Shown: one piece after another, positions 4,306 through 19,258 of the stretch
How the letters are laid out: each line of letters opens with the position of its first letter
Numbering within the stretch: position 1 is the first letter of the stretch
Source of the DNA: a virus
Direction: 5' to 3' (one strand)
DNA: 22,431 bases
Virus record (IMG/VR): IMGVR_UViG_3300033551_000280
Location: 1-22,431 of that record
The notes under the pieces: generated by a model
Told to the model about the DNA's origin: nothing
What the model saw: only the letters and a program-made list of their open reading frames with translations
The model's database searches: none
Position numbers and translations under genes: made by a program

Positions 4306-4314
4306 TTCTCTCCT

Positions 4315-4743: not shown

Positions 4744-5009
4744 TTGGTTTCCTCCAGGCGCCTGAGGTAGAACCGCGCCTTTTGTACATCCTGGGTTTGC
4801 CCCTTGAGCCGCTCGCGCCAGATGTACTTAAGCGCGTTGCCCTTACAAAAACCGCGGAACTCTTCTCTTGTTAGAGCTGCCTCGATTGCAGCTATGCACT
4901 CGACGCTTCCGCTGGTGTAGTGCGTAGGGTGGTTCACTGGGTCTGGGTTCGTCTTGGCCTTTAGGTGTTCTTCGAACGGGCCTTCCTCTTTGAAAGGTTC
5001 GGAACTCAT
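4740..5009 (-). CDS. DUF3310 family protein
   Basis: An 89-residue protein whose residues about 24-87 carry the DUF3310 signature: VNHPTHYTSG, then VECIAAIEAA, a FCKGNALKYIWRE core and a closing KARFYLRRLEE helix. The family is widespread in phages; a related region occurs in T7 gp1.7, which has nucleotide kinase activity, but this short form has no visible P-loop and its job is unknown. It is joined by ATGA overlaps to the genes on both sides, so it is probably made together with the lysozyme and the 122-residue unknown. Confidence 0.85.
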   Translation of the reverse strand: MSSEPFKEEGPFEEHLKAKTNPDPVNHPTHYTSGSVECIAAIEAALTREEFRGFCKGNALKYIWRERLKGQTQDVQKARFYLRRLEETK

Positions 5010-5374
5010 TTGCCTAGCTTCTCCATTTGCAATTCCTCATGCAGCTTTGTCACAAGCTGCGCGAGTACATCTCGCTTGATTGAAAGCTTCGCGACTCCGA
5101 TGGAGACTTCGATCATGTCGCTGCCCTTGCCGATCTTCGCCTCAAAGCTTGCGCCCCCTACTCCCGGGACAACCAACGAAGTAAACTCTTCCAGCTTCTG
5201 CGTCTTTGGTTCCTTGTAAGCGGGATAGAGTGTGCCCGGTTTGATCTGCATCTCCTTCACTAGCTGTTCCATCCTTCTGTAGTCTTCATAGAGTTTGTCT
5301 CTTGGGTACTTCAGTTCGTAACCCCAGTCAGGTGGTTCAAGCCCGAGCGGGTCTTTCGGATTCTGTATTGCCAT
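5006..5374 (-). CDS. Hypothetical protein, 122 aa, ends in EKLGK
   Basis: Not recognised. The N-terminal half is rich in proline, tyrosine and charged residues (YELKYPRDKLYEDYRR). Residues about 65-95 look like beta strands (VVPGVGGASFEAKIGKG), and the last 25 residues form a likely amphipathic helix ending LQMEKLGK, close to the C-terminal tail of the zinc-finger proteins to the right. AGGAGG lies 5 bases before the ATG. A very stable UUCG hairpin sits 20 bases upstream of the start, so expression may be tuned by RNA structure. Confidence 0.75.
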   Translation of the reverse strand: MAIQNPKDPLGLEPPDWGYELKYPRDKLYEDYRRMEQLVKEMQIKPGTLYPAYKEPKTQKLEEFTSLVVPGVGGASFEAKIGKGSDMIEVSIGVAKLSIKRDVLAQLVTKLHEELQMEKLGK

Positions 5375-5393
5375 TCATTCCTCCTAAGCTAGA

Positions 5394-5415: not shown

Positions 5416-5438
5416 CCTGTGTTTATCGTTACCCTATC

Positions 5439-5873: not shown

Positions 5874-5929
5874 GTGTAACTCCCCTTCTGTTGCGCACGT
5901 TAATCTTTCCGCCTGCTCATCCCTCTTCT

Positions 5930-6280
5930 TTAGACAATGGGTACACGTAAGGTGTGTTTCTTCCGTGTAGCCTGTCTCTTCCGGTTGCGGAGTAGCTTCT
6001 TCCACTCTTGGTCCAGAAGGTCGTAGGTAACCGCGTTGTCCTTGTCTTGCTCGAACCCGAGAGTTCGTGCCATAGTCAGGGAGTTCCCATCCGCGTCAAT
6101 CAGTTCCAACTCGTCGATGCCATAGCTGTAATCCCCGAAGACTTGGCCGAGGATGCACGCCTCACCGTTCGATATGGCTAAGCGTTCCGCATCAACCTTC
6201 TTGGTCCACTTGGTTCCAAGAGCTGCATCGAGGAAAGCTGCACCCGCAAACACTCTTGCTTTCACGTCATCGAAAATCAT
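5930..6280 (-). CDS. Conserved phage hypothetical protein, 116 aa
   Basis: The segment VFAGAAFLDAALGTKW, followed by ACILGQVFGDYSYG and GFEQD, resembles a small protein seen often in actinobacterial phages and genomes (GAxLLD..W..CVLGQ.xGDY..G), whose function is unknown to me. The C-terminus is very basic (RNRKRQATRKKHTLR), which could bind nucleic acid. I chose the ATG at 6280 because AGGAGG sits 8 bases before it; a GTG at 6289 directly abuts the SD. The leader contains ATCTTAAACGAAAGG, also found at 6975-6989. Confidence 0.75.
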   Translation of the reverse strand: MIFDDVKARVFAGAAFLDAALGTKWTKKVDAERLAISNGEACILGQVFGDYSYGIDELELIDADGNSLTMARTLGFEQDKDNAVTYDLLDQEWKKLLRNRKRQATRKKHTLRVPIV

Positions 6281-6313
6281 TTCATTCACCTCCTTTCGTT
6301 TAAGATCCTACTA

Positions 6314-6580
6314 CTACTTCACCTCTGCCCTCTTAGGCCCGCTTGGTTTCTCCCCGCATACATCACCTGCGCCGATTGACGGTGCTTGCCCACACCATTC
6401 GATACAATTCCCATCACCTACTCCCTGCTTCGGGCAGTGAAGGGGTGTGTGTGCTCCGAGATCGCGGGCAAGATACTGGATTTCCTTTAACGTACAGTCG
6501 CCTTCAGCCCTGTAGTTTCCCGTTCCATCCGGGATAATCGCGCACTGTAATGCGAGTAACAGCACAATCTCCGCAAGCAT
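6314..6580 (-). CDS. Small cysteine-rich, probably exported protein
   Basis: An 88-residue protein with a short hydrophobic start (MLAEIVLLLALQCAII) and six cysteines (about residues 13, 29, 49, 59, 63 and 75) spaced irregularly, which suits disulfides outside the cytoplasm better than a zinc site. ALQC is not a convincing lipobox because glutamine precedes the cysteine. The ATG shares one base with the stop of the fibronectin-III-like gene (TAATG), so the two are coupled and may act together at the envelope. No family recognised. Confidence 0.65.
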   Translation of the reverse strand: MLAEIVLLLALQCAIIPDGTGNYRAEGDCTLKEIQYLARDLGAHTPLHCPKQGVGDGNCIEWCGQAPSIGAGDVCGEKPSGPKRAEVK

Positions 6581-7158: not shown

Positions 7159-7293
7159 TTACTGAGATAGTTTCTTGAGCAACTCTTCACCGCGCACTCT
7201 CTGCTCTTCCTTATCCACGCGGTATGAGTGTCTAAGAGCTACGACGAACTCAGCTATGAGAAGCGCGTACACTGCGAAGAGTGCCCAGTCCAT
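7159..7293 (-). CDS. Small membrane protein, 44 aa
   Basis: Starts MDWALFAVYALLIAEFVVAL and continues into a charged tail (RVDKEEQRVRGEELLKKLSQ). One transmembrane helix spans about residues 3-20. AGGTGA lies 6 bases before the ATG, which directly follows the TAG of the 50-residue zinc-ribbon gene (TAGATG). It ends 13 bases before the next small membrane protein gene, which has the same layout (helix, then basic tail ending LLxxLS), so the two may be a pair acting in the membrane. Confidence 0.7.
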   Translation of the reverse strand: MDWALFAVYALLIAEFVVALRHSYRVDKEEQRVRGEELLKKLSQ

Positions 7294-7446
7294 CTACTTC
7301 ACCTGTTCTGCGTAGCCGTTACACTTCTCGCACCACCTACGCATCACGCCCTTGCCGTAGAACTTCACGGGTTTTATTTCGTGGCCGCACGTACCCATGA
7401 GTTTCTTCTGCTCCGCCTTCTTCTTATCCCCTGTCTTTGCACTCAT
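7294..7446 (-). CDS. Small zinc-ribbon-like protein, 50 aa
   Basis: Lysine-rich start (MSAKTGDKKKAEQKKLMG), then C20-x-H22 and C39-x2-C42 (WCEKCNGYAEQ), a likely single zinc site. It overlaps the 35-residue gene upstream by ATGA and is followed immediately by the ATG of the 44-residue membrane protein. Probably binds nucleic acid or a partner protein; no family recognised. Confidence 0.7.
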   Translation of the reverse strand: MSAKTGDKKKAEQKKLMGTCGHEIKPVKFYGKGVMRRWCEKCNGYAEQVK

Positions 7447-8553: not shown

Positions 8554-8823
8554 CTACTGTGCTAGCTTCCACATAATCAGGTTCTTCTCGTGCAGCTTGG
8601 TTTCCATGTGCGGCCACACCGAAGTCCTGTTCTTCATGGTCTTGTTACAAACCTTGCATAGGTAGAGAGACCTGAACCGCTGGAACCTCCCTGGTATTAA
8701 CGTCAGGGGTTCCACTGTCCGGGTAAAGCAGGTCGGAAGAGTACGCCATCGCATCCTGCGTGACGCCCTTCGACTTGCTGCCTCTATCTCGTAGGCACTC
8801 GTTAAAGTACTCTTGAGTTTCAT
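8554..8823 (-). CDS. Small U1/matrin-type C2H2 zinc-finger protein, 89 aa
   Basis: Starts MKLKSTLTSAYEIEAAS; an arginine-rich middle (RRASRRMRWR) precedes a C-terminal finger CKVC-x12-H-x5-H (VWPHMETKLHEKN) and the tail IMWKLAQ. Spacing C-x2-C-x12-H-x5-H is that of eukaryotic U1/matrin fingers, which bind RNA or DNA; the phage role is unknown. The ATG at 8823 forms an ATGA overlap with the gene upstream. It is the last member of a five-gene tandem cluster (8554-9851) of related proteins. Confidence 0.8.
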   Translation of the reverse strand: MKLKSTLTSAYEIEAASRRASRRMRWRTLPTCFTRTVEPLTLIPGRFQRFRSLYLCKVCNKTMKNRTSVWPHMETKLHEKNLIMWKLAQ

Positions 8824-9047
8824 TTCGCCAGCTTCTCCAGTACGTGATTCTCTTTGTGCTCTTCCCAGTGATCTGAGCAAACCTTCATCCGGCACCCATG
8901 CTGCTCACACTGGTAACCTGTCTCGCCATTCTTTATCCGATGCCTGCCCCTAATCTGTATGCTCCTGTTGCGCACATCACACACCTGTACCTTCTCTTTG
9001 TGCAGGCAATACACTCGCGCCTTGGGTGGATAGATTATGATAATCAT
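8820..9047 (-). CDS. Small Cys/His zinc-finger protein (HW-type), 75 aa, tail EKLAK
   Basis: Starts MIIIIYPPKARVYCLHK. The C-terminal half has YQCEQHGC, then VCSDHWEEHKENH, a set of C and H ligands (C-x4-C-x4-C-x2-H-x3-H-x3-H) that differs from the U1-type neighbours but matches the genes at 14321 and 14094 in the phrase C-x2-HW-x2-H. It ends HVLEKLAK. The ATG at 9047 gives an ATGA overlap with the upstream gene; an in-frame ATG at 9107 would overlap that gene by 64 bases. Confidence 0.78.
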   Translation of the reverse strand: MIIIIYPPKARVYCLHKEKVQVCDVRNRSIQIRGRHRIKNGETGYQCEQHGCRMKVCSDHWEEHKENHVLEKLAK

Positions 9048-9340
9048 ATGGATAACTTCAGCAGCAGCTCTGCGTCCTTGTGCGCTCCGCTTTTGATGTG
9101 CCTCCACATAGTATTCACGTCATGCATCATGTAATCACAGATGACGCAGTGCAGGTCTGGCTCCTCGCTTACTTTGTAAACCCACCCGGAAGTTGCAATG
9201 CCTGATTCCCAGGCGAGGAAGATGTCCTCGGTTGGAATGTCTATACGCCCTTTGTCGAACGGCTTGCCGCTTCTGTAATGAGATACAGCGTTGCGCAGTC
9301 GCCGCAACCTGTCCAAGCTTTCTTCTCTGCTCATCTTCAT
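9044..9340 (-). CDS. Small U1/matrin-type C2H2 zinc-finger protein, 98 aa
   Basis: An arginine-rich N-terminal helix (MKMSREESLDRLRRLRNAV) and a middle with acidic and aromatic residues lead to a finger CVIC-x12-H-x5-H with the phrase MWRHIKSGAHKD, very close to the H-x-x-GKxH phrase of eukaryotic U1/matrin fingers. The tail is ELLLKLSI. Both ends are ATGA overlaps. Role unknown; it probably binds structured nucleic acid if the finger works as in eukaryotes. Confidence 0.82.
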   Translation of the reverse strand: MKMSREESLDRLRRLRNAVSHYRSGKPFDKGRIDIPTEDIFLAWESGIATSGWVYKVSEEPDLHCVICDYMMHDVNTMWRHIKSGAHKDAELLLKLSI

Positions 9341-9606
9341 TTCGCTAACCTGTTCAGCATTACGGTTTCCGCGTGAGCCTTACTCGTAAGGTGCGTTTCT
9401 ACATCCTTGGCATGCTTAAGCTGCTTCTCCGGACAGTTGGTGCAGCGCCAGCCCTTGGCGTTGTAAGGCTTGATGATCCCATGCTTCTGCCACTCGATAG
9501 ACTTCCTTAATCTTTCCTCCAGGTCTGCTTGCCACGCACGTTGCCGCTGCCGCATGTCTTCACGGTTCTTCTCGTACCGCGCCATGATTTCGTCATTCGC
9601 GTTCAT
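9337..9606 (-). CDS. Small U1/matrin-type C2H2 zinc-finger protein, 89 aa
   Basis: A helical, charged N-terminus (ARYEKNREDMRQRQRAW, probably coiled-coil) is followed by GWRCTNC-x13-H-x5-H (VETHLTSKAHAE) and the tail VMLNRLAK. Joined by ATGA overlaps to the paralogs on both sides. The N-terminal part is unlike those of its neighbours, so only the finger and tail are shared. Confidence 0.82.
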   Translation of the reverse strand: MNANDEIMARYEKNREDMRQRQRAWQADLEERLRKSIEWQKHGIIKPYNAKGWRCTNCPEKQLKHAKDVETHLTSKAHAETVMLNRLAK

Positions 9607-9851
9607 TCCCCTAACCTCACAAGGATCATGTTTCTCTTGTGCTTCCTACTCTTAATGTGCTTGCTCACACACAGGGGTTTACGCATGTCCAGGAACTCAT
9701 TGCAGGCTAGGCAAGCCCACTCGAATTCAGCCGGATCCCTGTTCACGATCCTTAAGTGAATCTGATTGGACATCCACGCTTTGTCGAAGGACGGTTTCCA
9801 ACTCTCTTTTGAGTCGGTCAACTTCCCCCCTGAGGATATTGCACTCTTCAT
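9603..9851 (-). CDS. Small U1/matrin-type C2H2 zinc-finger protein, start uncertain
   Basis: Residues 44-82 carry FEWACLACNEF, the finger C-x2-C-x14-H-x5-H (SKHIKSRKHKRN) and the tail MILVRLGE. The start is uncertain: the ATG at 9851 has AAAGG 9 bases upstream within an ACGAAAGG leader, but would overlap the 61-residue gene by 125 bases. An in-frame ATG at 9773 gives 56 residues and a 47-base overlap but no RBS. The finger and the ATGA junction to the next gene are secure. Confidence 0.7.
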   Translation of the reverse strand: MKSAISSGGKLTDSKESWKPSFDKAWMSNQIHLRIVNRDPAEFEWACLACNEFLDMRKPLCVSKHIKSRKHKRNMILVRLGE

Positions 9852-9912
9852 CCCTAATGACCTTTCGTTTGAATAACTCTTCGACCTGCTCCGGTGTGAA
9901 TCTATGCTGCAT
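9727..9912 (-). CDS. Short coiled-coil protein, 61 aa
   Basis: Reads MQHRFTPEQVEELFKRKV and then a long charged helix (LRGEVDRLKRELETVLRQ) with leucines at heptad spacing. It starts inside the last codons of the Cas4-like gene, with GGGAG 9 bases before the ATG at 9912, and overlaps the following zinc-finger gene in another frame. FTPEQVEEL reads like genuine protein. Function unknown; it might dimerise or pair with the finger protein next to it. Confidence 0.55.
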   Translation of the reverse strand: MQHRFTPEQVEELFKRKVIRDEECNILRGEVDRLKRELETVLRQSVDVQSDSLKDREQGSG

Positions 9913-10774
9913 CCTTGTCATCTCCCTCTACCCCTATGCCTAGGTAAGCCAGGGGATTAGCCTTCTTGGGTAAGCGCGCAATCATTTCCGGAGGATTACC
10001 AGCTTCACATGCCGAGAGGAAGTAGCACTCCCCCATGTAGCGGGTGCAGCCCTTCGGAACTATGGTAGGCCACACATCCTGTTCATAAGAACGCTTCATG
10101 GTTTCGATGCGGAACTTGATGTTCTTGGCCCACACTTCCATGTCCTTTGCCCGCGGGACTATCTCTTCGCGGATGCAGAGGAACTCACTCCACTTGGTAT
10201 CCTTCGGGGTTACGAGGGTGAAGAGGCAGCCCTCTCCGCCTGTGTTATTCACTTGGCCTAAGACCTGGGCGTTAAGTGAAGCCCCGGTCATAATGAAGCT
10301 GTGCCCCGAGAACTTGAGCTCAGCAGTCCATGGTGTGGTTGTTGCTAGTTCCAGCAACAGCACGTCCGGCTTTGAACCAAAGTCCAGCACGGGATCAATG
10401 ATGTATTTTTCTATATCCATAACCTGGAAACGAGCTCGATCCCCCGGCCCATAGGTATCTATGTAAGTCTGGAAGGCTCGCTGCGCGGTCGCAATGGTGT
10501 ACTTCTGGTGCTTGTCCACGAAGGCAGGGGCGCCTGGATTAAACTGCTCCTGCTCTGCCATTGCTTTGTCATAACTGTCACGGCACTTCACCCAGTCTGG
10601 TTGCCAGGTTTGTACCATTTTGTTCATGTACCACTCAGTAAGGGGGACGTGGATTAGGTGCTCCGAGAAGATCGCATTGCGTGACATCGGCTCTGCGAGA
10701 TTCAGGTTGTACAACTTGTTGTATAGCTCCGGACACGTCTGATAAGTTTCTAATCTCGAATTATCAAAATCCAT
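9902..10774 (-). CDS. Cas4/RecB-like PD-(D/E)XK nuclease with Fe-S cysteines
   Basis: A 290-residue protein with the four-cysteine layout of Cas4/AddB nucleases: C14 in YQTCPELY near the N-terminus and C243, C250 and C256 in GCTRYMGECYFLSAC at the C-terminus, expected to hold a 4Fe-4S cluster. Between them lie the nuclease residues D137 (SKPDVLLLE) and E152-x-K154 (TAELKFSG), with Q170 in a following helix and H39 in the usual N-terminal histidine position. Such enzymes resect DNA ends; in phages they accompany RecA-like or annealing proteins, and a Sak4-like ATPase is encoded downstream. The ATG at 10774 follows GAGGGGG; a GTG at 10804 would place the promoter-like box inside the gene. No cas genes are present. 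Confidence 0.85.
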   Translation of the reverse strand: MDFDNSRLETYQTCPELYNKLYNLNLAEPMSRNAIFSEHLIHVPLTEWYMNKMVQTWQPDWVKCRDSYDKAMAEQEQFNPGAPAFVDKHQKYTIATAQRAFQTYIDTYGPGDRARFQVMDIEKYIIDPVLDFGSKPDVLLLELATTTPWTAELKFSGHSFIMTGASLNAQVLGQVNNTGGEGCLFTLVTPKDTKWSEFLCIREEIVPRAKDMEVWAKNIKFRIETMKRSYEQDVWPTIVPKGCTRYMGECYFLSACEAGNPPEMIARLPKKANPLAYLGIGVEGDDKDAA

Positions 10775-10793
10775 TTCGTCCCCCTCACTTGTT

Positions 10794-10821
10794 GAGATAA
10801 CCACGATTTTCTGTGTGTCAA
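10794..10821 (-). promoter_or_regulatory. Candidate internal promoter upstream of the Cas4-like gene
   Basis: On the minus strand, a perfect TTGACA (10821-10816) is followed after 16 bases by TATCTC (10799-10794). The -10 match is only partial. What raises confidence is that the same two blocks, GGAACTTGACA and TGGTTATC-x-CAACAAG, recur at 12022-12055 with a 1-base longer spacer and an unrelated spacer sequence. It lies in the 51-base gap after the 87-residue gene, directly before the RBS of the nuclease gene. Confidence 0.5.
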
Positions 10822-10825
10822 GTTC

Positions 10826-11089
10826 CTAATCGCCCCGCTTAAATGCGGTGTCCTTGAGAACCTCTTGGTAAAAGTCCGTTGGCGGTCCTTCGTGTCTCTG
10901 CTCCATAGCTGGAAGCGTGACAAGCATCCCTTCGACTGCATGCAATACCCTTTGCAGGTTGACGATGATCTTCCACATATTCCAGTCGGCAGTAGAAGTA
11001 GCAAAGCCGCAACCACGAACACATCTGTACTTCTTTTCCGCATAATAAACACCCGAGTCACATTTTGGGCACGTATGACTTAGTGACAT
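10826..11089 (-). CDS. Zinc-ribbon protein, 87 aa
   Basis: The N-terminus MSLSHTCPKCDSGVYY with C7-x2-C10 and CVRGC (C23-x3-C27) forms a zinc ribbon like those of small transcription or primase-associated proteins. The rest is helical and unrelated to the C2H2 neighbours, and the usual tail is missing (ends FKRGD). A GGGAG lies 13 bases before the ATG, a rather long spacing. Its stop nearly touches the candidate promoter of the Cas4-like gene. Confidence 0.7.
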   Translation of the reverse strand: MSLSHTCPKCDSGVYYAEKKYRCVRGCGFATSTADWNMWKIIVNLQRVLHAVEGMLVTLPAMEQRHEGPPTDFYQEVLKDTAFKRGD

Positions 11090-11125
11090 GGTAATTCTTG
11101 GCTCCCTTCCGCACGTTCCACACAG

Positions 11126-11524
11126 TTAATTCTCCACCTGCTCCACCTTCTTTCCGTCGCACTTATAGAAGATACGCTGCAGTGGTGGTACTAGGATTTC
11201 CCAGACCCCCGGCTTAGTCTCCGATGGTATCGGAGTACGGACCCAATCCGCGAGCCAGTTCGTCACGTCTTGGTAATCCCACCACGTTCTAGCCTTGTCT
11301 CCCTCGACGTGAAAGTGTGATACATCCGGCATCTCAATCGAGCCGGTTCTAGTCTTCCCCTCTTCTCCGACACAGTTGGTACAGACGTAGAGTTCCGCGT
11401 TGTGTTTGCACGGTAGCTCTACCTCGTACCTAACCTTCATGTTCCGTCCGCGCTGGCCGCAGATAGCACAATCTATATCGCGCTTCTGGGCACCTCCGGC
11501 CATGCGCTTAAGCTGAATTCGCAT
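11126..11524 (-). CDS. Zinc-binding hypothetical protein, 132 aa
   Basis: Two probable zinc-binding pairs: C19-x2-C22 (CAICGQRG) and C48-x2-C51 (CTNCVGEEG), with C39-x-H41 between them. The C-terminal half has no cysteines until the last segment and is rich in tryptophan (TWWDYQDVTNWLADW), suggesting a small globular domain. GGGAGG ends 3 bases before the ATG at 11524, while an in-frame ATG at 11557 lacks an RBS. No family recognised. Confidence 0.7.
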   Translation of the reverse strand: MRIQLKRMAGGAQKRDIDCAICGQRGRNMKVRYEVELPCKHNAELYVCTNCVGEEGKTRTGSIEMPDVSHFHVEGDKARTWWDYQDVTNWLADWVRTPIPSETKPGVWEILVPPLQRIFYKCDGKKVEQVEN

Positions 11525-11603
11525 AAACCTCCCTGTAGATTTGTCGGTGCTTGGCACACTGTAGGTAATAGCAACTTAAATACCACACAGTTTTGCCTTG
11601 TTG

Positions 11604-11966
11604 TCATTCCGAGCCTGCCACTTCTGTCACGTGGGTGGTATCATTTAGCACACCTTCTTTATCTTTGGTAACTCTTTTCTTCCTCTCCTTCTTAGGCTTG
11701 GAACACAAAAACTTTTCACACTTACAGCATACTTCTATCTCTTGTACTGTATGCATACAGTGCCTCTTGTGAATTTTAATTTTTGCCCCGCGCTTTACTT
11801 TCGGCTTCATCGCCTCGCGCTTCTTCTGTTGGGCCAGAGCCCGTGCCAGGGTCCGGTCCTCTTGCAGCTTGGTCACCTGCGCAACCAGCTCATCAGCGTC
11901 GAGGCTTTCGAGCAGGCGCACCCCCACCCGCTCTCTTAATCCATCACCCTTTGGTCCAATACCCAT
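11604..11966 (-). CDS. Basic zinc-finger-like hypothetical protein, 120 aa
   Basis: The N-terminal third is a charged helix (LLESLDADELVAQVTKLQ). The middle is very basic (KPKVKRGAKIKIHKRH), followed by CMHTVQEIEVCCKCEKFLC with several possible zinc ligands and then KPKKERKKR. It looks like a nucleic-acid-binding protein. The RBS is weak, but the promoter-like block at 12022-12050 lies just upstream. Confidence 0.65.
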   Translation of the reverse strand: MGIGPKGDGLRERVGVRLLESLDADELVAQVTKLQEDRTLARALAQQKKREAMKPKVKRGAKIKIHKRHCMHTVQEIEVCCKCEKFLCSKPKKERKKRVTKDKEGVLNDTTHVTEVAGSE

Positions 11967-12021
11967 TAGCTTTTACCCGCGATGCAGGTGCTGCTGCACA
12001 CAGCATCCCCTTTCGCTTGTT

Positions 12022-12050
12022 GCGATAACCATGTCACGCCGCGCTGTCAA
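12022..12050 (-). promoter_or_regulatory. Second copy of the candidate internal promoter
   Basis: On the minus strand, TTGACA (12050-12045), a 17-base spacer, then TATCGC (12027-12022). Compared with the copy at 10794-10821, GGAACTTGACA is identical and TGGTTATC-x-CAACAAG differs at a single base, whereas the spacer is unrelated. The upstream part overlaps the last codons of the TFIIIA-type finger gene. The -10 is a partial match, so an activator or phage sigma factor may be involved. Confidence 0.5.
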
Positions 12051-12333
12051 GTTCCCGGCGCCGCACTAAGTTCTCCACTGGATCACAGTACACCCACTTG
12101 CGCGGGATGTATGCTTCCTCATCCCTGAGCGGACGCTTCGCCCACGACTTGCCCAGGTTGATAGGGATCCCTGGTTGTATGCCCCACGCTGCGCGCTCGG
12201 CCAGCTCAACCTCGACGTTGCTGCTGTGAATTTGCCGACCGATTCTCCGCATGTAACCCGGATGCCCTAAGCTATAATGGGTACGCAGTTCAGAAACCTT
12301 GCCAAATACCTGTTCACATAACTTGCACTTCAT
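12034..12333 (-). CDS. Protein with N-terminal classical (TFIIIA-type) C2H2 zinc finger, 99 aa
   Basis: Residues 2-25 match the classical C2H2 finger exactly: C-x2-C-x3-F-x5-L-x2-H-x4-H (KCKLCEQVFGKVSELRTH and the final H). This is the only gene here with the finger at the N-terminus and with the conserved F and L of DNA-binding fingers. The rest contains RRIGRQIH and a basic C-terminus without the shared tail. AAGGAG lies 6 bases before the ATG. A candidate transcription regulator, because single-finger C2H2 proteins in bacteria (Ros/MucR type) regulate transcription. Confidence 0.75.
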   Translation of the reverse strand: MKCKLCEQVFGKVSELRTHYSLGHPGYMRRIGRQIHSSNVEVELAERAAWGIQPGIPINLGKSWAKRPLRDEEAYIPRKWVYCDPVENLVRRRELDSAA

Positions 12334-12343
12334 CTTGTTCTCC

Positions 12344-12523
12344 TTATTGTCCTAGTCTTATGAGTAGCTTTGCTTCATCGACGCACGCCTGGCAGTACAG
12401 TCCCGCTGGCAAGATGTCATTGTCCGTTTCCCTGGTGCAGACACACCAGATGGGAGGGGTCATACACTTCTTGCACGCTACGCCTAATCTAAATGCTAAG
12501 TCTGGATCGCTTATCGGATGCAC
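12344..12523 (-). CDS. Small zinc-ribbon protein with GTG start, 59 aa
   Basis: The GTG directly follows the TAA of the membrane protein gene upstream (TAAGTG) and has GAGGTG just before it. Cysteines occur as C17-x2-C20, C27-x-C29 and C44-x2-C47 (ACKKCMTPP, WCVCTRE, YCQACVDE), enough for one or two zinc sites. It ends AKLLIRLGQ, matching the shared tail. Its stop codon lies in the RBS region of the TFIIIA-type finger gene. Confidence 0.65.
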   Translation of the reverse strand: MHPISDPDLAFRLGVACKKCMTPPIWCVCTRETDNDILPAGLYCQACVDEAKLLIRLGQ

Positions 12524-12664
12524 TTACCACCTCTGCCCGTAGTAAAAGAACTTGATCGCCACGAGGACCAGGTTCACCGCGGTTGAGACCACGAGCAAAC
12601 GAAACGGCATAGCCTGCATGTAACCTACAAGGCTTAGGGTATAGATCCACAGATTGTCATTCAT
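12524..12664 (-). CDS. Small membrane protein, 46 aa
   Basis: Starts MNDNLWIYTLSLVGYMQ and has a strong transmembrane segment (RLLVVSTAVNLVLVAIKFF), possibly two. The ATG at 12664 makes an ATGA overlap with the zinc-finger gene upstream; an in-frame start at 12724 would overlap that gene by 64 bases. No family recognised. Confidence 0.65.
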   Translation of the reverse strand: MNDNLWIYTLSLVGYMQAMPFRLLVVSTAVNLVLVAIKFFYYGQRW

Positions 12665-12891
12665 TTGCTTAGTCTCCGTAGCAAGTAATTCTCCTTGTGC
12701 TTTGGGGTTTCGATGTGCTCCCACACCAGGGGCTCAGAGTCATCGTAGAACCACTCTTGGTTGCAGGCATGGCAGCGGAAGATACTTTTCGGGTATCCCT
12801 CTGGCCACGCCCAGCCCCATGTTCCGATGTCTTCGCGAAGAAGCACCTTAAGTGCAGCTTCCCTGCGGTTTACTTCCGATCCCAGTATCAT
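12661..12891 (-). CDS. Small U1/matrin-type C2H2 zinc-finger protein, 76 aa
   Basis: A charged N-terminal helix, then FRCHACNQEW with a finger C-x2-C-x15-H-x5-H (VWEHIETPKHKEN) and the tail YLLRRLSK. The ATG is placed right after the TAA of the VWA gene (TAAATG), and the stop overlaps the membrane protein gene by ATGA. The phrase WEHIETPKHKEN is strikingly like WPHMETKLHEKN in the gene at 8554. Confidence 0.82.
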   Translation of the reverse strand: MILGSEVNRREAALKVLLREDIGTWGWAWPEGYPKSIFRCHACNQEWFYDDSEPLVWEHIETPKHKENYLLRRLSK

Positions 12892-14097
12892 TTAGTTCAC
12901 CGTAATTACTTTGTAATCTTTCGGCACGCCTTGGCGCTCGCCGCGCGTCAAGATCACCACCGTCCGGTACGGCATGGGTTCATCCGGCCACGGGGTATCA
13001 CCATCGGTAAAGACCACCACTACATCCAAGCGAGGACGAAGGATCGCCGCTGCTTCCATGCCCACCCGCATGTCTGTTCCTCCACCGCCCCCAAGCTTGA
13101 CTTGCTTCATGCTGTTTGCCTTGCCCGCCGCAGCTACCGCCGCATCGACGGAGAAGTAATGCACCCCTATGCCCGAGCCGGTCATGGCATCAAGCACGCC
13201 CTTACATTCCGAGAGGGACTTCTGTATGTCCTTGTCTCCCATGCTACCTGAGGTATCAAAGATCAATCCTACCTGCGGCAAGTAAGAAACCATTGAGGGT
13301 TTGATAACGCACTGCTCACCCGGGATAGTTCTCCGTGAAGCCTTGCGGTAAGAGTAGTTCTGCTTACCCGAAGCTTCGGCGCTGGCTCTGCGCACCCTAC
13401 TCGCTAACTCCTTGGTCCACTTTACTTGAGGATGAAGCAGCTCATCCGCCCACCGTTTCAGGTTCCCCGGTACGTTACCCCTTCCCTCTTTGATGGCCTG
13501 CTCGATCTGCTTGGCCGCTTCATGGGTAAGAAGATCGCGCTCAGCCTTGGAGATAACATCCCCCTCTGCGGGTGCCGGGTCTTCCCCTTCCATCGGGTTC
13601 CCCGAGCACGAGCCGCACTTGCCAGGCTGCGGTGGTCCCTTGCCCTTCTTGCCCTGCCCGCCTGGTCCGTCTTCGTATTTGTCCTGGAGCATCTTGTAAT
13701 ACTCTTCAGCCAGTTTCCCATCCGGGAATCCTTCCTTGCTAGGCAAGGCATAGTCTATACATGCAGGAAGCTTTAGCCCTGAATCCAAGATGCCTTGGTT
13801 CATCTCCATATCCCCGGCCACGTTGTAAAGCTTCTTGTCGTGGTAGAAATCAGCCCGCTCGAAGTGATGGCACAAGAGGTGCTGCATCTCATGCACCAGC
13901 GTCCCCTCAAGCTCTTGCCTTGAACACTTCTTAAGGAACTCCGGGTCGTAGTAGGTACGCCAGTGCTTGTCCGTGCCCATCGTACCTATCCCAGGCTTCT
14001 CGATGAACTGAAGGTTCCACAAGATGCTGTTGAAGTAGTCATGGGTTTTACCCAGGCTAGTTCGCGCCGCTTGTAGTTCTATCGGTAATGGTTTCAT
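12892..14097 (-). CDS. Metallopeptidase-like and von Willebrand factor A (VWA) domain protein (DUF2201 type)
   Basis: A 401-residue protein of two parts. The N-terminal part (about 1-135) has a zinc-protease motif H69-E-M-Q-H73 (TLVHEMQHLL) and a downstream NVAGDMEMN that may give the third ligand. A low-complexity Gly/Pro/Lys linker with CGSC follows (145-175). The C-terminal VWA domain has a full metal-binding site: DTSGS (281-285), T341-D342 in GGGGTDM, and FTDGD (363-367). This is the DUF2201 layout, which pairs with MoxR-type ATPases; one is encoded just upstream, separated by two zinc-finger genes. Such pairs act as chaperones or metal-insertion machines. ATGA overlap at the start. Confidence 0.88.
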   Translation of the reverse strand: MKPLPIELQAARTSLGKTHDYFNSILWNLQFIEKPGIGTMGTDKHWRTYYDPEFLKKCSRQELEGTLVHEMQHLLCHHFERADFYHDKKLYNVAGDMEMNQGILDSGLKLPACIDYALPSKEGFPDGKLAEEYYKMLQDKYEDGPGGQGKKGKGPPQPGKCGSCSGNPMEGEDPAPAEGDVISKAERDLLTHEAAKQIEQAIKEGRGNVPGNLKRWADELLHPQVKWTKELASRVRRASAEASGKQNYSYRKASRRTIPGEQCVIKPSMVSYLPQVGLIFDTSGSMGDKDIQKSLSECKGVLDAMTGSGIGVHYFSVDAAVAAAGKANSMKQVKLGGGGGTDMRVGMEAAAILRPRLDVVVVFTDGDTPWPDEPMPYRTVVILTRGERQGVPKDYKVITVN

Positions 14098-14324
14098 TTA
14101 CTTAATGCCTCCATGATTAGTTCCCGTTCGTGTGCAGTCCAATGTTTCGCACAGACATGATGACTATGTGTGACACACCAGTACATTGTGCCGCTGGTGC
14201 AGCGATGGTTCCCTTCCCAGTTATCACCCGTGGGCCTACAGGTTAGATAAGCTTCCGCTGAATCCTTCCTCACCCGCAGACGGATCTCGGTGTACATCTC
14301 CTTCTGTCTTTGTCCCGGTCTCAT
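14094..14324 (-). CDS. Small Cys/His zinc-finger protein (HW-type), 76 aa
   Basis: Starts MRPGQRQKEMYTEIRLRVRK, then LTCRPTG, HRCTSG, YWCVTHSHH and VCAKHWTAHERE, giving up to four cysteines and several histidines. The phrase C-x2-HW-x2-H is shared with the genes at 8820 and 14321. Ends LIMEALSK. ATGA overlaps at both ends tie it between the other finger gene and the VWA protein. The cysteines at the start of the finger are spaced unlike the other members. Confidence 0.75.
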   Translation of the reverse strand: MRPGQRQKEMYTEIRLRVRKDSAEAYLTCRPTGDNWEGNHRCTSGTMYWCVTHSHHVCAKHWTAHERELIMEALSK

Positions 14325-14539
14325 TTCGCTAAGCTCTCCATCGTTTCGTGCTCTATATGCTGCTTCCAGTGGCGGGAACAGAACTTCCTCTGGCACTTAT
14401 GGCAGTGATACACATCACCCTCTGAGAGCATGTGTGCGCTGCTCACGCTGAGAGATACCCCGTAACAGATGAAGGCATCATCCTCGACAAGGTGATAGCG
14501 TAGTGTCTTGTAGTTCCGCCCCGCCACTTGGGTTTCCAT
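14321..14539 (-). CDS. Small Cys/His zinc-finger protein (HW-type), 72 aa
   Basis: Ends with a compact site YHCHKCQRKFCSRHWKQHIEH: C-x2-C-x4-C-x2-H-x3-H, close to B-box-like cross-braced or treble-clef fingers, followed by the tail TMESLAK. The N-terminal half (METQVAGRNYKTLRYHLVED) is unlike its relatives. AGGAGG lies 4 bases before the ATG, 8 bases after the stop of the MoxR ATPase, so it is made with that enzyme. Confidence 0.78.
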   Translation of the reverse strand: METQVAGRNYKTLRYHLVEDDAFICYGVSLSVSSAHMLSEGDVYHCHKCQRKFCSRHWKQHIEHETMESLAK

Positions 14540-14547
14540 TCTTCCTC

Positions 14548-15645
14548 CTATAAACCCGCAGCCTGCAAGACAGGCGCGAAGGGTTCGAGCATCTTCGTAA
14601 CACTCGGCAGCTTGCCGTTACGGTTACGAGCTAAGGATCTGCAAGCCGCGGCAGCCACATCCACATGCCCTTGCTTGGCGCACTCTGCGAGGATGGTCCA
14701 CGCTGCAACCCAGTAATCAGGCGTGAGGTTGCCGATGGCAGCAGCAACAACGCTATTGAGAACTGCGAAGTTCTTATCCTGCCGGTCATACATCTTGAAC
14801 TTCTTTGGATCCTTCAAAAGATCCAAGGGATTCGGCAGATCCATCTTGCGTAGCCAGGAAAGGAACTCGATAGCCACTGAGTTACCTACTGCCCCACCTA
14901 GGAGCAAGGTCTGGACTTCGTTGCTTGCATTAGCAGCGCGCGCCGCTGCCAGAGCTGGGATCGCAAGGCCATACCACGAACGGGGAGAGGGCCAAGCTTC
15001 GCATCTCTTGCTCTCTTCCTTGGGCACAGCATGCACATGCTGCGGGAAGGTCTGCAGGAAGGATGCTACCAGGGTACGCACGCCCCGGATCTCATTGCGC
15101 CAGCCTTCCGGCACGCGAGGGAACACAGGTTCCGGGAATTCATCCAAGAACCCCTGGATTACAACCTTCGGGTCTGTCACCCAATCAAGGTGGATCATCC
15201 GGTTAGCCACAGGTGCGCCGATCTCATTGGCGTTGATCGCCGTGTCCGTTGGGTTCATGTCAAGGACGATAGAGATACCATCAGGTAGCTTCACATCCCC
15301 CGCATAACGCTCTTGCACCACCCGCATCAAGGCTGCTTGCATTGCAGGAACGGTGCTGCCGATCTCGTTGATTAAGAGAACGCCCTTGCCTGCGGCAATC
15401 AGTTCCGAGAAGCAATCGCCTACGGGTAAGAGTCGTACCCGGTTATTAACCAGGTCCACTACTGGATAACCGCCGATGTCCTCTGGCAAGCGGCAGGTTC
15501 CGACGAAACACCCGAATGGCCAGCCAAGAGCCTTGCTCATGGCGTTGATGATGCTGGTCTTGCCGTTACCCGGATCGCCCTTCAGGACGCATGGGGTATT
15601 GGCTTGGATCGCTAATCCTAAGGCTGCTGTGCTTACTTCATTCAT
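14548..15645 (-). CDS. MoxR/CobS-type AAA+ ATPase
   Basis: A 365-residue AAA+ protein. Walker A GDPGNGKT (23-30); Walker B LLINE (90-94), with asparagine instead of the usual aspartate before the catalytic glutamate; sensor 1 N131 in LDMNPTD; and a probable arginine finger R149 in VANRM. The spacing and the IGGYPVVD segment (57-64) fit the MoxR/CobS branch. It likely remodels or loads metal into a partner using ATP, working with the VWA protein encoded 0.45 kb downstream. The C-terminal 180 residues are helical. It overlaps the 238-residue gene upstream by 8 bases. Confidence 0.88.
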   Translation of the reverse strand: MNEVSTAALGLAIQANTPCVLKGDPGNGKTSIINAMSKALGWPFGCFVGTCRLPEDIGGYPVVDLVNNRVRLLPVGDCFSELIAAGKGVLLINEIGSTVPAMQAALMRVVQERYAGDVKLPDGISIVLDMNPTDTAINANEIGAPVANRMIHLDWVTDPKVVIQGFLDEFPEPVFPRVPEGWRNEIRGVRTLVASFLQTFPQHVHAVPKEESKRCEAWPSPRSWYGLAIPALAAARAANASNEVQTLLLGGAVGNSVAIEFLSWLRKMDLPNPLDLLKDPKKFKMYDRQDKNFAVLNSVVAAAIGNLTPDYWVAAWTILAECAKQGHVDVAAAACRSLARNRNGKLPSVTKMLEPFAPVLQAAGL

Positions 15646-16354
15646 CTTCTTTCTCTCCTTTTGGTTGGAAACGATAATCGAACGCCTTGATTCTTATCCC
15701 TGCATTGAACTGATTCTTCGCTGACGATCCGCTTGGGCGGTAGTGTCCGCGAGGGCTGAAGCTCCGCTCATAACCGATGTCGAACTTGGCCTTCAGCCTA
15801 GAGCAGATGTCCTGTACCCTGTCATACACACGAGCCTTGAAGGGTATCTCCATGTACTCTTCCTTAGGTAGTTCCCTCCGAGCTGCCTTCAGAGCTAGGC
15901 CGAAGGCTGCCCCGCTCTTACCCTTAAAGCCATTGTGCAGCGCATCCACCTCTTCTGTGATCTCGAACGGTAGCTTCATGGCCGCGCGCCGTGCCTTCAT
16001 CTCTGGCGTATCCGAGTAGCTCTCATCTCCGAGAAAGAGATTGCGATACGCTTGTAAGAAGGCGAAGCAGCGCGGTACTTCGGATCCTAACTGCACCATC
16101 GAAAGCTCACCCTTGAAGTCCTTGTGGTCCAAGAGCTGCACGGGTCCACGTTGATGCAGACGCACTCTATGCGTCGAGCCCTGACAAGCCATGCTTACAA
16201 CGTGCGTGTAGCCCCGCTCTTCCTTGTGCTTGAGGTACTTGTTGTACTCCACGCCCAGGTGATACCTCTCCGCTTCATCGGTTTGTATCCGGTAGATCGC
16301 GGTGCTTGTCCTGGTCTTGCCATAGCTGCGACCCCACGCTCTTCTACGCGCCAT
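15638..16354 (-). CDS. Hypothetical protein, 238 aa, coupled to the MoxR gene
   Basis: Not recognised. Arginine/lysine-rich at both ends (MARRRAWGRSYGKTR at the start; RGHYRPSGSSAKNQ near the end), with a central region of mixed charge (PFEITEEVDALHNGFKG). AGGAGG lies 5 bases before the ATG and the gene overlaps the MoxR ATPase start by 8 bases, so it may be a client or adaptor of the ATPase. No zinc motif or membrane segment. Confidence 0.75.
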   Translation of the reverse strand: MARRRAWGRSYGKTRTSTAIYRIQTDEAERYHLGVEYNKYLKHKEERGYTHVVSMACQGSTHRVRLHQRGPVQLLDHKDFKGELSMVQLGSEVPRCFAFLQAYRNLFLGDESYSDTPEMKARRAAMKLPFEITEEVDALHNGFKGKSGAAFGLALKAARRELPKEEYMEIPFKARVYDRVQDICSRLKAKFDIGYERSFSPRGHYRPSGSSAKNQFNAGIRIKAFDYRFQPKGEKEDE

Positions 16355-16781
16355 TGTTCCTCCTTTGCTTCAGTGCTTCCAAAGCTTTCATTGCTCCGAG
16401 CATTGCTCCGGTGTGCTTTACTACTGGCTTGGGATAACCCAGCGCATCACGTGGATCGTAAGTCACCCTCCCAGTCTCAGTACCGTGGACCCTGAAGCCT
16501 TCCCATGCACCGACCCTAGCCTCAAGCTGACCGTGTATGGTAAAGCTATTCGGATGATCCTTGATGCTGTCGAGAGGAGTACCAACCACAACTGGTGGAT
16601 ACACCACTGCCTTGTGAGTAGGCTTGACTACCTCCTGAAACTTGACATTCTCGCCCCAAATGTGCGGGCAATGCGTGCCATCCACTACGCTCTCAGCAAT
16701 CATGTCGAGCCTATCCAAGGCATCCCACACCGGAACAGGCTTACGCTCTCGCGTATTCTTGATCTCGTCCTCGATGCTCAT
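16344..16781 (-). CDS. Hypothetical protein, 145 aa
   Basis: Not recognised. An acidic helix at the start (MSIEDEIKNTRERK), then strand-rich sequence with prolines (AVVYPPVVVGTPLD) and a basic C-terminal helix (GAMKALEALKQRRNNGA). It overlaps the 238-residue gene by 11 bases and the 63-residue gene by ATGA, so it belongs to the same translational unit as the MoxR ATPase. Confidence 0.7.
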   Translation of the reverse strand: MSIEDEIKNTRERKPVPVWDALDRLDMIAESVVDGTHCPHIWGENVKFQEVVKPTHKAVVYPPVVVGTPLDSIKDHPNSFTIHGQLEARVGAWEGFRVHGTETGRVTYDPRDALGYPKPVVKHTGAMLGAMKALEALKQRRNNGA

Positions 16782-16969
16782 TCATCTACCTCCTCGATCC
16801 TGTCCGGATCATAGTCATGCAAAAGGTTGAGCAACCACTTTGTCTTGGCCGAGTCGTAAGCTTCTAAGGCTGCTTCGCACTCTTGGAAAAGCTTTATCCT
16901 TAGTGCATGGTGTGCAGCCTCCGGTGATTCCCAAACCTTTACCCACTTCTTACGTCCGGTAAGAATCAT
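16778..16969 (-). CDS. Hypothetical protein, 63 aa
   Basis: Mostly helical: a basic start (MILTGRKKWVKVWESPE) followed by two predicted helices (AHHALRIKLFQECEAAL, TKWLLNLLHDYD) and an acidic end. No motif recognised. Fixed by ATGA overlaps at both ends. Confidence 0.7.
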   Translation of the reverse strand: MILTGRKKWVKVWESPEAAHHALRIKLFQECEAALEAYDSAKTKWLLNLLHDYDPDRIEEVDE

Positions 16970-17193
16970 ACACTCTTCTCCCTATGCCCCTTCTCTATCT
17001 CATCCATCTCCGCATCTGTCGCTGCTTCGGATGCCACGTACTCCGAGTAACGCTGCACCCAACACAGTTCATGCCAAAGCAAGACATAGATAGGTACGAT
17101 GAAGCCCCGGTGCAGCAGGTCGAGCATCTTGGCATACACGCTATGATGCGGATGCACTTCCTCACCGCAGCCGAGACAGTTCCTTCGTTTCAT
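16966..17193 (-). CDS. Hypothetical protein with N-terminal C-x2-C/His cluster, 75 aa
   Basis: Starts MKRRNCLGCGEEVHPHHSVY; C6-x2-C9 with H14, H16 and H17 could bind zinc. The middle is hydrophobic (LLHRGFIVPIYVLLWHEL) and the end is acidic. AGGAGG lies 9 bases before the ATG. No family recognised. Confidence 0.7.
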   Translation of the reverse strand: MKRRNCLGCGEEVHPHHSVYAKMLDLLHRGFIVPIYVLLWHELCWVQRYSEYVASEAATDAEMDEIEKGHREKSV

Positions 17194-17210
17194 AAACCTG
17201 GTCCTCCTTC

Positions 17211-17480
17211 CTATTTCGCTAGCTTCTCCAGCTCTTCGGCGTAACGAATGCCTTCGACTAATCGCCTGCCCTGCTCTGGGCTAGTCATGGCCCGGAAGAC
17301 AAGCTCATCGAACTCGTTGAAGAATCCGATATAGACTGAATCAGTTACTCCGCCTTCCCATATTCTGCACCTCAGGGTATCACCCTTGATCCCCTTCGTG
17401 TCTGAAGGCAGGACGTAAGGCATGTCATCAATCTTTATGAGTACGTCTTCGTACCTAGGGTTATTCGGTCGGTTTGCCAT
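17211..17480 (-). CDS. Hypothetical protein, 89 aa, with the EKLAK tail but no zinc finger
   Basis: Starts MANRPNNPRYEDVLIKIDD. The body is predicted beta strands (LRCRIWEGGVTDSVYIGFF) with one cysteine, so no zinc finger is possible. It closes with a helix ending YAEELEKLAK, identical in its last five residues to the finger protein at 8820. This shows that the tail is separate from the finger. AAAGGGG lies 8 bases before the ATG at 17480; longer in-frame readings run into the 57-residue gene. Confidence 0.75.
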   Translation of the reverse strand: MANRPNNPRYEDVLIKIDDMPYVLPSDTKGIKGDTLRCRIWEGGVTDSVYIGFFNEFDELVFRAMTSPEQGRRLVEGIRYAEELEKLAK

Positions 17481-17634
17481 TATGCTTCCCCTTTCTGCTC
17501 CTTGGCGCATCACACTCTCCGTAATGCTCCCAGTAAACACGCCCCTCATGCTTTACCGGCAGGTGCAGGTACTTCTCTAACTCAAACCTCTTGCACCTAA
17601 AGCACCTGTGCTTTTTATTCTGCGAGTTTGCCAC
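17461..17634 (-). CDS. Small zinc-finger-like protein with GTG start, 57 aa
   Basis: Reads VANSQNKKHRCFRCKRFELE with C11-x2-C14, later EGRVYWEHYGEC (H37, C41), so C-x2-C-x22-H-x3-C is possible, then a basic end. The GTG lies in the last codons of the 67-residue gene (20-base overlap) and the RBS is weak, so the start is uncertain, but the composition reads as real protein and fills a gap otherwise empty of genes. Confidence 0.55.
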   Translation of the reverse strand: MANSQNKKHRCFRCKRFELEKYLHLPVKHEGRVYWEHYGECDAPRSRKGKHNGKPTE

Positions 17635-17818
17635 AGATGCACTTCTCTTTCATGCTGTGATTCTTATGGGCCATGTCGTCAAGTAACTTGTTCATCTCAT
17701 CAAGCTCTTTCTCTAAGGCTAAGAACTGCTCAGAGTTCACCCTGCGCGACACACACATCGGACAGTTCTCAGTCTCATATCCGATCTTAGCGTGCCCATC
17801 TATGCAGGTCTTAATCAT
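17615..17818 (-). CDS. Small zinc-ribbon/coiled-coil protein, 67 aa
   Basis: C5 with H9 (MIKTCIDGHAKIG) and C19-x2-C22 (ENCPMCVSRR), then a charged coiled-coil (LALEKELDEMNKLLDDMA) and C59-x-C61 in MKEKCICGKLAE. The tail GKLAE fits the shared consensus. ATGA overlap with the gene upstream. Confidence 0.72.
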   Translation of the reverse strand: MIKTCIDGHAKIGYETENCPMCVSRRVNSEQFLALEKELDEMNKLLDDMAHKNHSMKEKCICGKLAE

Positions 17819-18093
17819 TTTGCTAGCCTCTCCATGAGTACGATCTCGGTGTGCTTATCTGTCTTGACGTGAGCCCACGCCTTGGACCAGCTCCCTATCT
17901 TCAGCGAGTGATTAGGGTGACACTTGTAACAGCACCAGCCCTTGCGCGTAATCCAGTCCATGCCCAGAACTTGAAGCTTCAGCCTTCTCCGATCTTTGCG
18001 TCGCATCATAGCTTCCTGCCGCTCTGCGAGAAGGGTTTCCCGCCTCATCTGCTTGGCAATCCCGGCAATAAGCTCATCCATTGTTTTGCTCAC
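17815..18093 (-). CDS. Small U1/matrin-type C2H2 zinc-finger protein, 92 aa
   Basis: A long basic helix (LLAERQEAMMRRKDRRRLK) is followed by GWCCYKCHPNHSLK with a finger C-x2-C-x16-H-x5-H (WAHVKTDKHTE) and the tail VLMERLAK. The basic helix plus finger suggests nucleic-acid binding. ATGA overlaps on both sides. Confidence 0.82.
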   Translation of the reverse strand: MSKTMDELIAGIAKQMRRETLLAERQEAMMRRKDRRRLKLQVLGMDWITRKGWCCYKCHPNHSLKIGSWSKAWAHVKTDKHTEIVLMERLAK

Positions 18094-18311
18094 TTAGCTA
18101 GCCTCCGCATAAGCTTCAGCTCCTTGTGATCCTCAGACCTAATGTGCTCGTAAGCTTTCTTCTGATTACCCAAGGCTATGTACTGAGGTGGCTCAAAGTC
18201 ACGGAGAGCTTCCTCAAAGTTGGGCGCACAGCTTATGCACACGTAGCCGTAGCCAAAGACCCTGGTCAGCCCTTCCTTGACCAAGAGTGCTTCCTTAGCG
18301 CGTCGCTTCAT
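18090..18311 (-). CDS. Small C2H2 zinc-finger protein with enlarged loop, 73 aa
   Basis: YVCISC and YEHIRSEDHKE give C-x2-C-x27-H-x5-H: the same ends as the U1-type fingers here but with about 12-15 extra residues in the loop. Tail LKLMRRLAK. ATGA overlaps on both sides, with the HD hydrolase upstream. The larger loop may change what it binds. Confidence 0.8.
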   Translation of the reverse strand: MKRRAKEALLVKEGLTRVFGYGYVCISCAPNFEEALRDFEPPQYIALGNQKKAYEHIRSEDHKELKLMRRLAK

Positions 18312-18859
18312 GCTATCTTCGCAAGCTTAGCCTTGGCATCATTATGCTCCGCTATCTTCTGGCCGCATCTCCGCACGCTCTCGCAGGCTTCGTGAAAGAG
18401 CTTCTTATCGCCATGCCCCAGAAGATCCAGGTTCTTCTCGATCTCCGGGAGATAGACCTTGGCGAAGTTGATGTCGTTGGCGCAGATGTCTTCGGTATTA
18501 TCTATGATGTCTGCAAGCTTGATGGTTGCGCCTTCGTGGTCACACTGGGCCAGGTGATCCCGATCTATGGCCTTGCGGATAGCCCTATTTCCATCTTCGA
18601 GCTTAGACACATCCGTAACCTGCTCCACCAGGTTTTCAACCATGGCGCCGAACTCTATCCGAATCCTGAGCAGAGTAACGCCACAGTCTTCCACCACGTC
18701 ATGGAGCATCGCCGCGGCTATTACATGAGGCAGAGCCCCAGTCTTAGCCACGCGCTCAGCTACCCTGAGAGGATGGATGATGTAAGGATCTCCGCTGTAC
18801 TTGCGCTTCTGATTCTTATGCGCCTCTGCTGCGAACCTTGCTGCTTTAGCTACATTCAT
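18308..18859 (-). CDS. HD-domain phosphohydrolase, SpoT/MESH1-like
   Basis: A 183-residue protein with the hydrolase half of RelA/SpoT enzymes: AAEAHKNQKRKYSGDPYIIH (11-29), metal ligands H29, H53-D54 in MLHDVVED, and D117 in IKLADIIDN, with the FG and VTDVSK segments between. In SpoT and MESH1 these residues bind manganese and remove pyrophosphate from (p)ppGpp. No synthetase, TGS or ACT domain is present, so it is a stand-alone hydrolase, though the substrate could be another nucleotide. The ATG at 18859 has AGGAGG 6 bases upstream. Joined by ATGA to a zinc-finger gene. Confidence 0.85.
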   Translation of the reverse strand: MNVAKAARFAAEAHKNQKRKYSGDPYIIHPLRVAERVAKTGALPHVIAAAMLHDVVEDCGVTLLRIRIEFGAMVENLVEQVTDVSKLEDGNRAIRKAIDRDHLAQCDHEGATIKLADIIDNTEDICANDINFAKVYLPEIEKNLDLLGHGDKKLFHEACESVRRCGQKIAEHNDAKAKLAKIA

Positions 18860-18968
18860 CTTGCACCTCCTGCCACGCATACTTCATTGTACACCTTCGG
18901 CAGGCGTAGATGGTCTTCTTTACACCCGTGAAGATTATGTGGAGTAATCCACCGCATTTACATCTCAT
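18846..18968 (-). CDS. Tiny zinc-ribbon protein, 40 aa
   Basis: Starts MRCKCGGLLHIIFTGVKK and has C3-x-C5 and C23-x2-C26 (YACRRCTMKYAW), the layout of a complete small zinc ribbon similar to Com-type translational activators of phage Mu. The ATG overlaps the upstream stop (ATGA) and the end overlaps the HD gene by 14 bases; its last codons carry the AGGAGG that serves the HD gene. Likely real and possibly regulatory. Confidence 0.7.
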   Translation of the reverse strand: MRCKCGGLLHIIFTGVKKTIYACRRCTMKYAWQEVQDECS

Positions 18969-19258
18969 TTTCGTAACTCCTTGTGACATCTCTTAATATG
19001 CTTGTCCCACTCAGGTCTAACCTTATCTGAGATTTCGCTTACACGTCCGCCCCACAGTCCGAGACCCTTAGGGGATTCTCTCGCCAGGTCTCGCACGTCC
19101 TTGAAGGTCTGGGAGGTAAAGCCCGAAGCTTCCCACTTATCCAAGAGATCAAGCATCTTGGGCACGAAGGTTTCCAGATAAGCTTTCCGCTCTGCTCGAT
19201 CTGTGTAGAAACTGTCTATAGCCTCGACGGAGGCTTGCCATCGCTTAAGCGGATTCAT
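18965..19258 (-). CDS. Hypothetical helical protein, 97 aa
   Basis: Predicted all-helical, with aromatic and charged residues (MNPLKRWQASVEAIDSFY; MLDLLDKWEASGFTSQ) and a basic end (DKHIKRCHKELRK). No family recognised. AGGAG lies 7 bases before the ATG; 14-base overlap with the 53-residue gene upstream. Confidence 0.72.
   Translation of the reverse strand: MNPLKRWQASVEAIDSFYTDRAERKAYLETFVPKMLDLLDKWEASGFTSQTFKDVRDLARESPKGLGLWGGRVSEISDKVRPEWDKHIKRCHKELRK

Follow-up and report, generated by a model that had tools for sequence, protein, structure and literature searches.

The DNA considered here, hereafter the window, is the whole of the IMG/VR virus record IMGVR_UViG_3300033551_000280; it spans 22,431 bases and is classed as linear, so that it is probably a fragment. 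Its minus strand holds nearly all of the plausible genes, among them seven that each encode a small protein ending in a Cys2His2 finger motif. An earlier note on this DNA had described seven genes with the layout C-x2-C-x(12-27)-H-x5-H, an observation that is confirmed: all seven are present on the minus strand and are laid out as claimed (Table 1; genes are named by their lower coordinate). We refer to these genes as the finger family and to a second set of three Cys-rich genes as family B. A short C-terminal tail found in the finger family recurs on otherwise unrelated proteins of the same window.

The His-x5-His spacing is invariant in the finger family (7/7), every member has exactly 11 residues between its last His and the stop, and the gap between the second Cys and the first His runs from 12 to 27 residues. 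In the finger alignment no column is invariant apart from the four ligands and a Leu in the tail. Five of the seven proteins have isoelectric points (pI) of 9.4-11.0, the others being 9044 (pI 7.0) and 12661 (pI 6.3), and the segment comprising the finger helix plus the tail carries net positive charge in all seven. The N-terminal regions, which the earlier note took to be various starts joined to the fingers, do vary in length but are not unrelated, as in most of them a basic helix recurs and a GI/GL...GW/GY lead-in precedes the first Cys. For gene 8554 the ATGA overlap with the preceding gene makes 8823, rather than 8895, the most likely start. Gene 9603 starts at either 9851 or 9773, the uncertainty arising from an overlapping open reading frame (ORF); that ORF (9727-9921, minus strand), coiled-coil-like and in another frame, overlaps the 5' part of 9603 and is unfavoured by codon usage.

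Since a profile matches its own training set, relatedness among the seven was assessed with leave-one-out hidden Markov models (HMMs) in a search space of about 21,700 ORFs from the window and 70-odd related phages. Six held-out members were recovered at E-values of 7.3e-9, 5.6e-7, 7.5e-7, 2.5e-5, 2.7e-5 and 7.4e-5; recovery of 9044 was weaker (E=0.011) and ranked behind one chance ORF. A stricter DNA pattern for finger plus tail had two matches in the window and none in 100 shuffles. The members are only 26-58% identical over their last 19 positions (46-65% in DNA), a divergence so strong that it speaks against a recent burst of duplication; judged by sequence, this is an old paralogous family.

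Fold and distribution of the fingers

Compared with solved fingers, the family profile matched MBP-1 at 4e-5, PRP11 at 0.011 and U1-C at 0.035, the latter two being borderline, and ZNF593 at 0.18. The best Pfam match was that of 9044 to zf-C2H2_jaz (E 4.9e-4, 20.6 bits, under the curated cut-off of 22.6), and the remaining members had lower scores against zf-C2H2_jaz or zf-met, or none. The HMM search proposed in the earlier note thus brought out a tendency toward the jaz type but did not reach the curated thresholds.

Structure prediction for 9337 with AlphaFold2, run without templates and with the seven window paralogues as sole input, gave a folded finger with a mean predicted local distance difference test score (pLDDT) of 89.3. 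The model comprises a helix at residues 3-41, a hairpin, and two helices at 66-73 and 76-88, the break between the latter coinciding with the x5 loop. As helix 76-88 reaches the C-terminus, the 11-residue tail would simply form the last part of the second finger helix. In Foldseek searches of the PDB the highest probabilities went to PRP11 (0.95; root-mean-square deviation 1.3 over 45 columns) and SF3A2 (0.90), followed by SF3A3 in a U2 chain (0.84), TUT1 with U6 (0.84), ARS2 and JAZ ZF3. Nearly all of the high-probability matches are RNA-associated and of one kind, namely U1/matrin/JAZ-type fingers.

On the evidence of profiles, the Pfam tendency and the predicted fold, the assignment of these paralogues to the U1-C/matrin type, put forward in the earlier note, is supported. 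With the fingers of PRP11/SF3A2, SF3A3, U1-C, TUT1 and JAZ/ZNF346 (zf-C2H2_jaz, PF12171; zf-met, PF12874) they share C-x2-C...H-x5-H, an aromatic residue before the first Cys, a two-part helix after the first His, and a similar profile and fold. They differ from these in being single fingers at the extreme C-terminus, with a fixed 11-residue tail and a loop of up to 27 residues, in a phage genome and below the Pfam cut-offs. Classical TFIIIA-type C2H2 fingers likewise have Cys2His2 ligands and a beta-hairpin plus helix, but their His residues are spaced by 3-4, a spacing found in none of the seven, and no protein of the family carries tandem fingers. An eighth C2H2-like finger is encoded at 12034-12333 on the minus strand (CKLCEQVFGKVSELRTHYSLGH); it is N-terminal, tail-less and of the classical H-x4-H kind (zf-C2H2 E=0.015).

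The earlier note had also called such fingers rare in phages, and the searches are consistent with this. Queries with single fingers, a consensus finger and family B in tblastn against 50,697 phage records returned nothing below E=5; the finger family was absent from the approximately 74 polymerase-related phages examined; a viral structure library held no convincing phage match to the finger; and single-protein scans of viral contigs with a MoxR-like ATPase and the 9902 protein found no related phages. DNA patterns for the finger had no coding match in IMG/VR and 85,000 genomes (one per bacterial or archaeal species), the patterns being narrow: those for finger plus tail needed particular codons and a K-TGA end, so that zero matches are only indicative. 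Six viral matches to the tail-free pattern all fell in one WWGHIHWWGH low-complexity frame and a single genome match contained an internal stop, neither representing a finger protein. We found no report of U1-type fingers in phage in the open-access literature, where classical C2H2 fingers are described as all but missing from bacteria and as scarce in archaea and archaeal viruses (PMC3541406).

The AFV1p06 family of archaeal viruses resembles the present one in consisting of small single-finger viral proteins with a eukaryote-like fold (PMC3541406). AFV1p06 differs in that it binds DNA and shows the classical motif with its fourth ligand missing, and archaeal viruses typically encode one or two zinc-finger sequences each, whereas seven paralogues occur here in a bacterial-type phage. 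U1/matrin-type fingers in multiple copies are characteristic of the RNA biology of eukaryotes. A bacterial-type phage with seven paralogues would either extend the range of the fold or exemplify convergence onto it, and the family would offer small single-domain proteins for studying how a finger of this kind reads RNA.

A tail shared beyond the finger family

The tail, overlooked in the earlier note, reaches beyond the finger family onto otherwise unrelated proteins. Also overlooked were the three genes of family B, which are defined by a Cys-rich beta part followed by C-x2-HWxxH and are set apart from the finger family by this Cys/His layout; their last His likewise lies 12 residues from the end. 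One of them resembles zf-AN1 weakly (E=0.006, below the cut-off), and a family B model of moderate confidence (pLDDT 74.5) had no convincing fold match.

Table 1. Finger genes, family B genes and other genes bearing the tail, by position in the window
Position	Strand	Class	Length (aa)	Features
5006..5374	-	other tail-bearing		non-finger protein without metal site; ends LQMEKLGK; ATGA-coupled
7159..7293	-	other tail-bearing		small protein, N-terminal hydrophobic stretch; ends EELLKKLSQ; uncoupled
8554..8823	-	finger family	89 (from ATG at 8823)	x12; tail IMWKLAQ; uncoupled to following gene
8820..9047	-	family B	75	Cys-rich beta part; C-x2-HWxxH-x11-stop; tail LEKLAK; inside the finger array
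9044..9340	-	finger family	98	x12, finger MWRHIKSGAHKD; tail LLLKLSI; weakest in leave-one-out
9337..9606	-	finger family	89	x14; tail MLNRLAK; structure predicted
9603..9851	-	finger family	82 (56 if start is 9773)	x14; tail ILVRLGE; next gene overlapped
12344..12523	-	other tail-bearing		Cys-rich, other layout; ends CQACVDEAKLLIRLGQ (same tail); own Shine-Dalgarno after it; uncoupled
12661..12891	-	finger family	76	x15; tail LLRRLSK
14094..14324	-	family B	76	C-x2-HWxxH-x11-stop; tail MEALSK
14321..14539	-	family B	72	C-x2-HWxxH-x11-stop; tail MESLAK; weak zf-AN1 resemblance
17211..17549	-	other tail-bearing		non-finger protein without metal site; ends EELEKLAK; own GGAGG for next gene; uncoupled
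17615..17818	-	other tail-bearing		small Cys-containing protein; ends CICGKLAE
17815..18093	-	finger family	92	long basic N-terminal helix; x16; tail LMERLAK; ATGA overlap with next gene
18090..18311	-	finger family	73	C-x2-C-x27-H-x5-H-x11-stop; tail LMRRLAK; next gene overlapped

The tetrapeptide [KR]L[ASG][KQEI] was defined from the finger family only and then counted at the ends of other genes. Of the 46 other window genes 6 end in it, whereas in the polymerase-related phages it terminates none of the 1,635 genes predicted (Fisher 3e-10). This p-value should be read as indicative, given that the window genes were curated by eye, and the genes compared with them were called by a greedy ORF finder, some of them falsely. 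With family B left out the count is 5/43 (p=9e-9), and in annotated genes of other phages it is 0/262.

Candidate functions

The seven finger proteins and the recurring tail point to a set of regulators, as yet undescribed, that bind RNA or a partner. The reading that we prefer, at a probability of roughly 0.45, is that an operon gives rise to small RNA-binding regulators whose tail helix docks to a shared partner. Structured RNA would be the most likely ligand of the fingers, given that it is bound by the nearest folds and that five of the seven proteins are strongly basic, and a tail carried by different folds suggests a single partner for docking. Each protein is predicted to consist of an N-terminal part that is mostly helical and varies in length, the finger, and a second helix running into the 11-residue tail. 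The finger, via presumed zinc, would bind structured or double-stranded RNA of phage or host, the basic N-terminal helix might strengthen binding or let the protein self-associate, and the final helix (h-h-x-[RK]-L-[AS]-K) would dock to one partner common to all tail-bearing proteins. Most of the proteins would be co-produced, their genes overlapping by ATGA within the replication/recombination operon, and would form a set of small RNA-binding regulators with one common site of action. Phage Mu Com, a small zinc finger protein that binds messenger RNA and activates translation (PMC6483171), can serve as a working analogy only, Com being a single gene and the finger family multi-membered. The interpretation offered in the earlier note is in sum partly supported: RNA binding is plausible given the fold, whereas the arms-race function drew no direct support, the searches having yielded no finger-bearing relatives to compare.

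Several points weigh against RNA-binding regulators with a docking tail. The neutral or acidic members 9044 and 12661 may fail to bind RNA; the domain is short and its Pfam scores stay below the curated cut-offs; no PDB match to the 9337 model reached E <= 0.001 in Foldseek, where E-values are weak because the domain is so short; the searches found no relatives to show residue conservation outside this genome; and the tail is only four residues long. Protein contacts, moreover, are also served by U1/matrin fingers.

In a less probable alternative, the fingers are protein-interaction modules and the variable N-terminus of each member latches onto a different host protein (e.g. polymerase, ribosome or nuclease), forming a panel for host takeover or counter-defence. 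In its favour, the genes are small and variable and occur in several copies within a phage operon, and 9044 and 12661 are neutral or acidic. Zinc-like small genes, counted by a simple regular expression, are also about seven times denser in the window (0.67 per kb) than in related phages (mean 0.096 per kb over 62 loci of other phages and one of a genome). Against it stand the closest folds, which are mostly those of RNA-associated fingers, and the strongly basic character of most members.

Other alternatives concern the tail itself. It could be a by-product of translational coupling, in that the last codons hold the Shine-Dalgarno sequence of the next gene and the AAATGA overlap, forcing R/K-L-x-K. 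Ten tail-bearing genes do overlap the next gene by 4 bases, AGG or GGAG precedes the ATG by 8-12 nt in several of them with the R/E codons giving part of the Shine-Dalgarno sequence, and the tail Leu codon is YTA in 13/16 cases against a 25% background (p=3e-6), a bias at the nucleotide level. Yet the tail is found on the uncoupled genes 8554, 12344, 17211, 7159 and 6981, is missing from the coupled genes 16778, 16966, 19403 and 18965, and ends none of the 1,635 genes of other phages that also have overlapping genes. Moreover, the residue at its third position stays small although the codons differ (GCG, GGA, TCT, AGC), with size rather than a base preserved, which fits selection on the protein. 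As several bearers are uncoupled, coupling cannot be the whole reason for the tail and is unlikely to be its explanation; it contributes, but selection at the protein level accounts better for the whole. An interpretation of the tail DNA as purely an RNA operator was rejected, since what stays constant at position 3 is residue size and not the base. The YTA bias is seen in uncoupled tail genes as well, and a YTA with G or A after it generates a stop in another frame shortly ahead of the end.

Equally doubtful is descent of all tail bearers from one finger gene, with the finger lost or replaced in some and the tail merely capping a helix as a relic of domain shuffling. A metal-ligand-like residue 12-13 positions from the end in the finger family, family B and 12344 would agree with this, as would the tandem arrangement of several members; the unrelated bearers 17211, 7159 and 5006, by contrast, retain the tail with diverged codons, which is unexpected of a functionless relic.

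More speculatively, and with no better odds than these two, [KR]L[AS][KQ]-COOH at a helix end might act as an address carried by a quarter or more of the early-region proteins, U1-type fingers and unrelated folds alike, for one common phage or host receptor, that is, a sorting or assembly tag of a kind undescribed in phages. Were the tail a docking signal of either sort, it would provide a simple handle with which to retrieve the common target of many uncharacterised phage proteins together. An ssrA-like degron that would hand short-lived early proteins to a host protease is very improbable: many small proteins share a short, hydrophobic motif at the C-terminus, as would suit it, but ssrA-type signals end in uncharged LAA, and no such C-terminus occurs among the tails, all 13 strict cases of which end in K, Q, E or I.

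Genomic setting

The window belongs to a bacterial-type tailed phage and encodes a DNA polymerase of family A, a Sak4-like annealing protein, a lysozyme and a metallophosphoesterase. At 12892-15645 (minus strand) lie genes for an AAA ATPase and an adjoining putative metallopeptidase/VWA protein that resemble gp24/gp25 of N4, and two of the family B genes sit between them. In an alignment covering about 74 phages the polymerase is approximately 28% identical to its nearest others, with the exception of a second IMG/VR contig (6507 bases) from a different metagenome. This contig has 7 mismatches in 6471 bases (99.9%) and is the same virus; it covers only window positions 1-6471 and stops short of the finger genes. 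An exact DNA search over gene 17815 found no further contigs of this virus.

Further small Cys-rich, zinc-ribbon-like proteins, which are unusually numerous in this genome, are encoded on the minus strand at 7294-7446, 10826-11089, 11126-11557, 11604-11966, 17461-17634, 18846-18989 and 20838-21212. Finally, the minus-strand gene at 18308-18880 encodes an HD-domain protein (HD_4, 7.6e-17) that resembles the HD part of RelA/SpoT, as in a small alarmone hydrolase, and that may be a modulator of the stringent response.

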